From an uncultured SAR116 cluster alpha proteobacterium (GTDB lineage Bacteria > Pseudomonadota > Alphaproteobacteria > Puniceispirillales > Marisalimonadaceae), in the NCBI GenBank assembly GCA_902578805.1, contig CACHEH010000002.1, positions 62,001-126,000 on the forward strand: a DNA stretch of 64,000 bases, written 5' to 3'. Position 1 is the stretch's first letter; each line of letters begins with the position of its first letter. This document shows positions 45,170-60,146 of this stretch, piece after piece. The position numbers and the translations under genes were made by a program. The notes under the pieces are model-generated. The model made no database searches. It saw only the letters and a list, made by a program, of their open reading frames with translations, and was not told where the DNA came from.

Positions 45170-45478
45170 ATGTCAGAAACTGTAACTGTTAAGATTGAAA
45201 TAAATGGGGTTGTTTATCCAGTTTCTTGTATGGTAGGTGAAGAGAACAGACTTATTGATTCATCAAAAGAGGTAAATAAAGTTATTGCGAGTTTGTCAAA
45301 TGTTTCAGAAACAATTAGTGAAACAAGACTATTAGCTATGACATCTTTAATTCTAGCTGACAAATTGATGGTTCAAGAAAATACCTCTTACAACAATAAT
45401 CTGGATGAACTTATTAATTGGCTAGAAAAAGCTACTGAAAGAATGAATAAAGTTGCAAAATTACTTGAAAACAAATAA
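45170..45478 (+). CDS. zapA: Cell division protein ZapA
   Basis: 102 aa. FtsZ-bundling factor. 'VTVKIEINGVVYPVSCMVGEENRLIDSSKEVNKVI' is the ZapA N-terminal globular block and 'TRLLAMTSLILADKLM' the start of the dimerisation helix, with a coiled-coil C-terminus. It follows the DUF4164-like gene and its TAA (45476-45478) lies inside the -10 of the downstream 6S RNA promoter. Confidence 0.92.
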   Translation: MSETVTVKIEINGVVYPVSCMVGEENRLIDSSKEVNKVIASLSNVSETISETRLLAMTSLILADKLMVQENTSYNNNLDELINWLEKATERMNKVAKLLENK

Positions 45479-45487: not shown

Positions 45488-45641
45488 GTGAAAGCTGAAT
45501 TTTCCGTTAGGAACTTTAATCCTTGGGGCCATAAGTATTCTAAGGGAACCGTCACTGCTTTAGCTTTGGTTAAATTAAATGGTGCCCACCTGTTCAACAG
45601 GCAACATAGGATAACTTATCCAACGACTTTTTGGCTTTCAT
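45488..45641 (+). ncRNA. ssrS: 6S RNA (SsrS)
   Basis: About 154 bases between zapA and the 5-formyltetrahydrofolate cyclo-ligase gene, the conserved alphaproteobacterial location of 6S RNA. A terminal stem is formed by TGAAAGC (45489-45495) and GCTTTCA (45634-45640). The inner part has the G-rich 'CCTTGGGGCC' 5' arm and the 'GGTGCCCACCTG' element known from other alphaproteobacterial 6S RNAs, followed by a small hairpin CCTG-TTCAA-CAGG. 6S RNA binds the RNA polymerase-sigma70 holoenzyme and dampens transcription in stationary phase. Exact ends are approximate; the open helix in the middle acts as the promoter mimic. Confidence 0.82.
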
Positions 45642-45659: not shown

Positions 45660-46258
45660 ATGAAAAATACACTTAGAATTGTTGCAAAAAAAAAAGAACA
45701 AACTTTAATTTAGGATTAGAGGCAAAGGCTGATTTTAGAAATAATATCTACATATGTTTAAACAAGATTTTTCTTTCAAACAAAAATATTGAAACCGCCA
45801 GTTTATACTTTCCAATAAATAATGAGATTTCACCATTTGATTTCATTAATTATTTACAAAAAAAAGATGTAACGCTTTCTTTACCTGTAGTAGATACAAA
45901 AAAAAAATCAATGAATTTTAAGAAATGGATACTTTTTGATAAATTAATAAGTGGTCCATTTGGTACTATGGAACCTCCCAAAACTCAGACATCTATTTTG
46001 CCACAAATTTTAGTAGTTCCAATGCTTTCATTTGATAAGGAATTGTATAGACTAGGTTATGGTGGTGGATATTACGACAAATCAATAAATATTTTAAAAA
46101 AACACTTTAAAAAAGAAAGAAAGTTTTTTATTACAATTGGTCTTGCTTATAGCATGCAAGAAGAAAAAAAAATACCTAAAGAAAAGCATGACATGAAATT
46201 GGATTACATTATCACAGAAAAAGAAGTGTTATCTAATTTTAATCAAAAAAAATGTTAA
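45660..46258 (+). CDS. fthC: 5-formyltetrahydrofolate cyclo-ligase, reading frame broken at an A10 run
   Basis: About 199 aa if the frame is joined. From the ATG at 45660 the frame reads MKNTLRIVAKKK and then stops (TAG) after EQTLI. Moving back one base inside the A10 run at 45686-45695 reads AGA ACA AAC TTT and continues open to 46258: 'NFNLGLEAKADF', 'SLYFPINNEISPF', 'VVPMLSFDKELYRLGYGGGYYDKS', which is the family's ATP/folate-site signature, and a normal C-terminus. Expected length is about 180-195. A restored frame needs one more A or a -1 slip. A second A10 (45898-45907) in the same gene is already in frame. The enzyme salvages 5-formyl-THF. An annotation pipeline would mark it frameshifted. 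Confidence 0.8.
45686..45695 (+). other. A10 slippage or indel site in the cyclo-ligase gene
   Basis: Ten consecutive A preceded by GC and followed by GAACA. Frame 0 gives GCA AAA AAA AAA GAA...stop; the other side of the gene is in the -1 frame. It is a classical candidate for polymerase slippage or -1 ribosomal frameshifting, but also for a homopolymer error in the assembly. Confidence 0.7.
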
Positions 46259-59010: not shown

Positions 59011-60146
59011 ATGGCTTTTATCAAAAAAACAAGATATCTTTTAGCACCACCATACTGCAAATCAGTTGAGACTTTCATAAGCCCAATACTCAGTTCACCA
59101 TCTGAACTTTTAGATGGTTTAAGGCTAGCAGGTGGTTGGAGATACTTTAAGAATTTAAGGGTGATTCAAAAAAAAAAGATCATTTAATTGAAGTTCAATT
59201 GTCAACTCAAGAATTATTGAAACTTGCTAAAAAGCATAGCAACATTTCTTTAACTGAAGCTGAATATCAAATAAATAATTTAGTAAATAAGAGATTCCCT
59301 TTTGTTAAGCTTGACATGTCAATACCCCACATAATGGGTGTAATAAACATAACACCAGATAGCTTTTACAAAACTAGCCAAATTAATAATCTTAATAAAC
59401 TTAATAAAATTTTTCGTGAAATGATTAATAATGGAGCTTCTATTATTGATGTTGGAGGTGAATCAAGTAGACCAGGGGCAGAAAAAATTTCAATTTTTGA
59501 AGAAAAAAGTAGAGTTATTGATCCAATAAAACATCTTAAAAATTACAAAGAAGATTTTTTGATATCACTAGACTCACGAAATTTGTCAACAATGAAGAAA
59601 TGTCACAATCTCGGTGTCGATATTTTCAATGACATTACTGCATTTAAGGCAAAAAATAAAATTGATTTTATTAAAAAAACTGCCAAACCCATAATTATAA
59701 TGCATATGCAAAAAGAACCAATAAATATGCAAATAAATCCTACATATAGTTTTGCTCCTATTGATATTTATAAATTTTTTTCAAAAAAAATTATTGATTT
59801 AATTGAGGCAGGTGTAAAAAAATCAAATATTGTTATTGACCCAGGCATTGGTTTCGGAAAAACTTTATCTGATAACTTAAATATTCTTAAATATTTAACA
59901 CTTTTCCATGGTCTAGGTGTCCCAATTTTGATTGGAATAAGTAGAAAATCACTTATTAGAGATCTTGTTATGGATGATTATAAATTACGTGGAAAAAATA
60001 AAAAGGACATAAGTCCAAGTAAAAGGTTGAGTGGCTCATTAGCATTTGCTATTTATGCATACATGTGTGGAGTTCAAATATTAAGAACGCATGATGTATT
60101 TGAAACAAAACAGGCTTTGATATGTCAACAGTCGTTAGATTTATAG
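59011..60146 (+). CDS. folP: Dihydropteroate synthase, reading frame broken at an A10 run
   Basis: About 378 aa if joined. From ATG 59011 the frame reads 'MAFIKKTRYLLAPPYCKSVE', then 'GLRLAGGWRYFKNLRVIQKKK', a match for the alphaproteobacterial FolP N-terminal extension, then stops (TAA) after the A10 run at 59168-59177. Shifting back one base gives 'DHLIEVQLSTQELLKLAKKHSN' and runs to 60146: 'IMGVINITPDSFY', 'IIDVGGESSRPGAEKI', 'DSRNLST', 'VIDPGIGFGKTL', and the C-terminal 'RTHDVFETKQAL'. The TTG at 59199, an apparent start in the second frame, is an artefact of the break. The enzyme joins pABA to dihydropterin pyrophosphate. Restoration needs one extra A or a -1 slip. Confidence 0.85.
59168..59177 (+). 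other. A10 slippage or indel site in folP
   Basis: Ten A after GTGATTC and before GATCATTT. Frame 0 reads CAA AAA AAA AAG ATC ATT TAA; the following folP sequence needs the -1 frame. Same direction and same run length as at 45686-45695. Confidence 0.75.

Follow-up and report, generated by a model that had tools for sequence, protein, structure and literature searches.

A run of ten A splits the cyclo-ligase gene fthC in a SAR116 clade and is probably bridged by slippage

How might a cell make a whole 5-formyltetrahydrofolate cyclo-ligase (FthC) from a gene whose first codons and remaining body lie in different reading frames? This question is raised by fthC in the window, the 64-kb stretch of DNA analyzed here, which is part of contig C2 of an assembly of 1,486,761 bases (70% complete).

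Structure of the fthC locus

The following features of the locus are all on the forward strand.

45489..45641, +, 6S RNA (RF00013), directly 5' of fthC (49.8 bits; gathering threshold 46.4)
45660..45713, +, fthC zero-frame ORF, reading MKNTLRIVAKKKEQTLI and a stop (window sequence)
45677..46258, +, fthC body in the -1 frame, predicted 5-formyl-THF cyclo-ligase, coding from the A run onward (PF01812, TIGR02727)
45686..45695, +, A10, candidate recoding site joining the two fthC frames (window sequence, 14 clade genomes and G030)
45898..45907, +, second A10 within the fthC body, in frame on both sides (window sequence)

The zero frame runs from the ATG at 45660 to a stop at 45711-45713. From 45677 onward the body frame meets no stop until 46256-46258, and its first ATG, GTG or TTG comes only at 45911; the two frames are connected solely through the A10 at 45686-45695. 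A preliminary description of this DNA had claimed exactly such a split, and the window sequence bears it out. Both frames would be fused at this site if the message gained an A or if the ribosome took a -1 step.

Profile searches with the body gave 94.7 bits against PF01812 (cut-off 27) and 121.9 bits against TIGR02727 (cut-off 84.9), and its predicted product is 5-formyltetrahydrofolate cyclo-ligase. The joined product scored 123.5 bits against TIGR02727, above the same cut-off, and matched profile positions 1-182, i.e., the full length; the match begins at profile position 36 for the body alone and at 89 for the product of the internal ATG (45911). A PDB search with FthC left its first residues unaligned in the three alignments examined. 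We take these N-terminal residues to have a role in ATP binding.

The gene order is zapA (45170-45478), 6S RNA (45489-45641), fthC and, from 46269, a TIGR00282-like phosphoesterase gene (243.0 bits, below the model cut-off of 254.15). 6S RNA lies 5' of fthC in eight of the nine relatives scanned (L016 had no match over threshold), so the arrangement is not peculiar to shifted genes. Offered purely as an idea to be tested, a start of low yield might limit how much FthC is made from 6S read-through transcripts. In many relatives' assemblies (e.g., G016, G002, G022, G020, G013, G001 and G021), fthC is found about 8 kb from a contig end, which suggests a repeat at that place.

Distribution and origin of the break

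Relatives that carry names are SAR116 cluster alphaproteobacteria in nine of the 12 loci; the other three are distant. An fthC match was obtained in 29 of 40 genomes of the genus and not in the other 11. All matches except that of G031, a contig-end fragment, were read at the start region (28 genomes). Exactly ten A and the identical break are present in all 14 genomes of one SAR116 clade with 70-100% protein identity (G000, G005, G016, G004, G002, G008, G019, G006, G022, G023, G020, G018, G013 and G014). Outside this clade, G030 also has the A10 and the break. The 13 remaining members read carry fthC in frame, with A11 at the site (G034, G012, G026), with A10 in another phase (G027, G037) or with no long run there (G024, G001, G035, G015, G009, G021, G039, G029). 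Beyond the genus, where 61 further genomes were searched, 51 matched or were listed and 22 were read for fthC, the start is in frame in all 22 (sister-genus G041 and G044 plus 20 of the family and order). The preliminary description had proposed looking among orthologs for an intact frame without an A tract; such frames do exist, but only outside the clade, whose 14 members all keep the A10 break.

In an fthC protein tree (midpoint root), the 14 shifted genomes form one clade (99/95), while G030 pairs with the in-frame G027 (100/99), and two separate changes are hence needed. A one-A deletion would have been fixed twice, in the ancestor of the 14-species clade and separately in the lineage of G030, the tract having since remained, on this reading, uninterrupted and exactly ten A long. 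The recent single-base deletion previously offered as an option is ruled out, as the break is shared through this deep clade.

A sequencing or assembly error at the A10 might be suspected, homopolymers being prone to error and the named relatives including single-cell assemblies. Yet 14 separate assemblies agree on A10, while assemblies of the same type do give A11 here for G034, G012 and G026, and also at other runs. This excludes the homopolymer miscount suggested earlier, and on these sequences an error of either kind is in practice refuted.

Selection on fthC

Among the 14 clade genomes, variable columns in the fthC body number 80, 64 and 148 at the first, second and third codon positions (182 codons), and the median pairwise dN/dS is 0.19 (91 pairs). 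Judged by this pattern, the body is under purifying selection. The eight-odd codons upstream of the run have 3, 2 and 3 variable columns, too few for a selection test. Nonetheless, the peptide that they encode resembles the N-terminus of in-frame relatives, and the start ATG and Arg6 are present in 14/14 clade members. Every matching genome has a single fthC match, including G013 (99% complete) and G030 (100%).

That fthC is decaying or dispensable could be argued from its broken frame and from the 11 of 40 genus genomes without a match, although the missing matches are explicable by incompleteness since all five genomes that are at least 90% complete have one. The dN/dS of 0.19 and the third-position variation, across a clade whose proteins diverge by as much as 30%, speak against decay, as do the retention of A10 in every member and the lack of any further break common to them. 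We regard decay as very unlikely, in agreement with the preliminary description, which had held that the gene is not decaying.

A working FthC could also arise without any shift if translation began at a non-canonical start codon in the body frame. Odd starts may occur in these genomes, given that their hemD appears to start at ATT after a good ribosome site. However, 12 of the 14 clade members have no ATG, GTG or TTG in the body frame before offset 192 (the exceptions are a TTG at 57 in G018 and a TTG at 81 in G013), and the presence of the upstream ATG and Arg6 throughout the clade and the likeness of the peptide to in-frame N-termini also count against such a start, which we consider highly improbable.

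Constancy of the tract and the run length at which shifts appear

As controls we took coding runs of ten or more A that are in frame, 48 in total from five clade genomes and including an internal fthC run. None of the 21 control runs with all four orthologs in the fetched sample keeps its exact length in all four. Among 117 pairwise comparisons, the length is identical in 27 and at least nine A are retained in 45; in these control figures some orthologous runs are counted repeatedly (from each genome) and protein identity varies. The out-of-frame run of fthC has its exact length in the five control genomes and in all 14 clade members, a constancy beyond what chance would give when set against the controls.

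A structural scan of coding A runs across 2,380,095 bases from nine genomes gave in-frame and out-of-frame counts of 856 and 18 for A8, 251 and 4 for A9, 48 and 8 for A10, 10 and 0 for A11, and 1 and 0 for A12. Out-of-frame runs thus make up 8 of the 67 coding runs of at least ten A and fall in three genes only: fthC (six genomes), folP (G000) and tsaE (G013). None of the A8 and A9 candidates that were viewed (8 of 18 and 4 of 4, respectively) was a clean shift; they turned out to be junctions between genes, antisense frames, a start at ATT and, in one instance, a deletion. Within the nine-genome sample, A10 was the minimum run length with clear shifts. Genome-wide slippage as in eroded symbionts is not supported, the A10 shifts being confined to fthC, folP and tsaE. 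The hemD candidate for an A8 shift (G000, contig C2, 11,565) reads as an ATT start instead; an AGGAG-like site precedes the apparent ATT start of this gene (L045), and G008 shows the same arrangement.

A wider list held 130 frame pairs at runs of at least eight A or T, 12 of which had some fusion support in a relative; six of these are fthC or folP at A10, and six are A8, A9 or T8 runs. Two of the latter six were viewed. The A8 run in G024 (at 110,351) looks like upstream sequence of a gene, and the A9 run in G020 (at 131,999) was rejected as a simple slip. At this position on contig C1 of G020, a gene that G008, G016 and G013 carry uninterrupted is missing about 97 bases, with a frame change at the A9. 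The list missed the fthC of G030 and also tsaE, for which the sample offered no in-frame ortholog. The 19 rows of a tblastn frameshift scan did not include fthC, whose N-terminal piece is too short for this approach, and structural scans were therefore used.

Breaks of the same kind in folP and tsaE

The window contains a second gene, folP, with a break of the same kind.

59011..59187, +, folP zero-frame ORF, ending in VIQKKKII and a stop (window sequence)
59151..60146, +, folP body in the -1 frame, dihydropteroate synthase (TIGR01496, 260.4 bits)
59168..59177, +, A10 in folP, where one more A is needed (window sequence)

In the genus, folP is broken at the A run in 7 of the 29 sites read, sporadically and in the same direction as fthC. 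The run is A10 and out of frame in G000, G002, G003, G005, G019 and G020, and A12 and out of frame in G007. Elsewhere it is in frame as A11 (G008, G016, G022, G013, G034), as A13 (G017, G033) or as A10 in another context (eight genomes: G023, G018, G024, G039, G021, G031, G015, G001), or is shorter (six genomes: G014, G006, G038, G009, G035, G030). The A-run count excludes G012, which has another lesion, and the folP of G027 was left out. In G012 (L151), the lesion lies at a mixed run, A6 and then G6, instead of at A alone. At equal A10, fthC and folP break in different codon phases.

These folP tract lengths, both in and out of frame among species, together with the position of the fthC homopolymer close to the gene start, could indicate phase variation, in which replication slippage would flip the run between A10 (off) and A11 (on). 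Within the clade, however, fthC is off in 14 genomes and on in none (one genome per species), and FthC is a housekeeping enzyme; we find such switching hardly credible. Because folP tracts move, within the same clade too, whereas that of fthC is frozen, the comparison is our main ground for suggesting that the out-of-frame state of fthC may be favored rather than merely tolerated, perhaps setting expression, with tract constancy as the only basis for the latter idea.

The break in tsaE is nearly genus-wide. A search with its N-terminal part matched 27 of 40 genus genomes (G029 is a contig-end fragment), and A10 with a -1 break is present in 23 of the 26 read (L215 of G013, and L216-L240). The three in-frame genes have A11 (G008, G017) or A10 plus an extra T (G032), exceptions of a kind that fthC lacks within its clade. 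Variation in the tsaE body by codon position is 39/24/50 over 57 codons (22 shifted genes). No TsaE match over the cut-off was obtained in G000, an incomplete assembly. In sister-genus G041 and G044, the profile match ends at 94, and the open frames are 109 and 114 amino acids long. The table rows of these two genomes resemble those of shifted genes.

Probable slippage by the polymerase or by the ribosome

Of the options raised by the preliminary description, productive slippage is the one that remains, in the direction it named (an added A, or a -1 ribosomal step), and the cell very probably makes whole FthC by slipping on the A run. We think it fairly likely that fthC in the window functions by means of a fixed, productive recoding site, at which RNA polymerase adds one A to the A10. 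Polymerase slippage would do so in a fraction of transcripts, and these would join the N-terminal peptide to the body and yield full-length FthC; transcripts lacking the extra A would give a product ending after 13-17 residues in the clade. That the slip occurs in transcription, and how efficient it is, we infer.

Several observations favor transcription: clear shifts set in at ten, fthC retains all ten A although a ribosomal heptamer needs seven, and fthC and folP differ in the codon phase of the break. No stimulators were found at fthC either. None of the Shine-Dalgarno (SD)-like motifs searched for occurs in the 24 bases before the run (14/14), and there is no consensus fold after it (energy 0 over 45, 60 and 90 bases, with pseudoknots outside the search). 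Published rates (papers are cited here by PMC number, from excerpts of their text) point the same way. Insertions are reported to prevail in A/T runs and to become much more frequent as runs lengthen (PMC5574713), corrected transcripts to make up 12-50% at the long A runs of endosymbionts (PMC5009743), and Escherichia coli heptamers without stimulators to reach at most about 10 times a background of 0.055% (PMC4066793). The fthC A10, located in the overlap of two ORFs and shared by the 14 clade genomes and G030, agrees with the criterion of at least nine A given in PMC1088944.

The main rival to polymerase slippage is programmed -1 ribosomal frameshifting, in which two tRNA-Lys would re-pair on A_AAA_AAA within the run while the message stays A10. 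A slippery heptamer is indeed in phase in fthC (GC A_AAA_AAA), with A_AAA_AAG in folP, and bacterial lysine-tRNA(UUU) is characterized as highly prone to shifting (PMC4066793). Every A-run shift found also has one direction, one A short (15 genomes for fthC, 7 for folP and 23 for tsaE), which points to ribosomal shifting by the rule in PMC3711429, a rule with which the shifted fthC genes agree in 15/15. The polymerase would, in addition, encounter further long in-frame A runs inside fthC (45898-45907 in the window, A10 and A10 in G008, A10 and A11 in G019), where slippage would cost yield. Reports on the direction of polymerase slippage are mixed, as PMC6260861 cites in vitro work in which deletions by E. 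coli polymerase predominated on an A11 tract, and states that this enzyme slips more on T runs. On the other hand, a conserved SD-like motif or fold is lacking at fthC (at tsaE, by eye, a GAGG immediately precedes the run in 8 of 23 shifted genomes), ten A are retained where seven suffice, and no clean shift was evident at A8 or A9 among the candidates viewed. In E. coli reporters, values of 10, 40 and 63% are given for A7, A9 and A11 cassettes without distinguishing the mechanism in the excerpt (PMC3711429), so that A7 can work too. The single direction, the in-phase heptamer, the tsaE GAGG in 8/23 and the mixed reports keep the ribosomal route under consideration, and we rate it as possible but doubtful.

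A possible feedback role and wider significance

Two of the three shifted genes are in folate metabolism, which is suggestive, although three genes are few. A folate-only theme (our first idea after folP) is too narrow given tsaE. MnmEG draws methylene-THF to modify wobble uridines (PMC9626948), a modification carried by tRNAs for Gln, Lys and Glu (PMC5400242), and TsaE belongs to the t6A37 pathway on ANN-reading tRNAs (PMC5013485). All three genes could then bear on the tRNA that reads the A run, with FthC and FolP serving the folate one-carbon pool. Loss of these tRNA modifications changes slippage on AAA. If modification fell, slippage on AAA would change, and with it the output of the genes that restore modification, so that the A10 sites would act as feedback sensors of lysine decoding in a prfB-like loop for tRNA-Lys. 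We consider such a role improbable.

A gene caller would truncate or discard genes of this type, and SAR116 genomes could consequently be scored as having no intact cyclo-ligase or TsaE, both of which are probably made. The significance of the locus lies in an exact out-of-frame A10 that has two origins in fthC and that tsaE carries across nearly the whole genus. It makes testable whether poly-A slippage outside insect endosymbionts is tolerated or kept as expression control.

Comparison with known systems

Our search of the open-licence literature found no report of a frameshift in fthC or tsaE and nothing linking SAR116, or marine bacteria, with transcriptional slippage; papers on SAR116 and frameshifts were unrelated by title. 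Folate is not mentioned in the excerpts of PMC3711429 and PMC5009743.

The closest parallel is with the frameshifted genes of Buchnera and Blochmannia, which are thought to be rescued by transcriptional slippage (PMC3017870, PMC5009743). According to these excerpts, they share with fthC an AT-rich genome, an otherwise intact gene and a single-A break in a long A run, some breaks being common to species. The hosts here are, in contrast, marine SAR116 bacteria with genomes of up to about 2.3 Mb rather than insect endosymbionts, the exact fthC tract is found in 14 species with a parallel origin, and shifts are rare (three genes in the sample). The preliminary description had likewise invoked Buchnera; this fits the mechanism but not the marine SAR116 relatives, and the fthC shift is more conserved than casual rescue needs.

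Thermus dnaX, Shigella mxiE and insertion sequences (PMC1088944, in excerpt) resemble fthC in having at least nine A or T and a conserved ORF overlap, and in mxiE, as would be the case in fthC, an extra base yields the longer product. Unlike these, fthC is a metabolic enzyme gene with its break at codon 13, and slippage in its RNA is a proposal. As excerpted, -1 frameshifting at A-rich heptamers (PMC4066793, PMC3711429) is similar in its in-phase heptamer and in a direction that is the same throughout; fthC differs in that no conserved stimulator was found and ten A are kept, not seven.

The release factor gene prfB (RF2) is comparable to fthC in that both are housekeeping genes broken near the start, the break is conserved among species, and failure to shift stops translation at once. 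The autoregulatory frameshift of prfB is +1 at a stop codon. The fthC break differs in site and direction, and any sensing at fthC would be hypothetical. Rescue of A-run frameshifts in insect endosymbionts and functional slippage in dnaX, mxiE and insertion sequences were already known; new here are the marine SAR116 group, the exact tract across 14 species, the parallel origin and the nearly genus-wide tsaE case.
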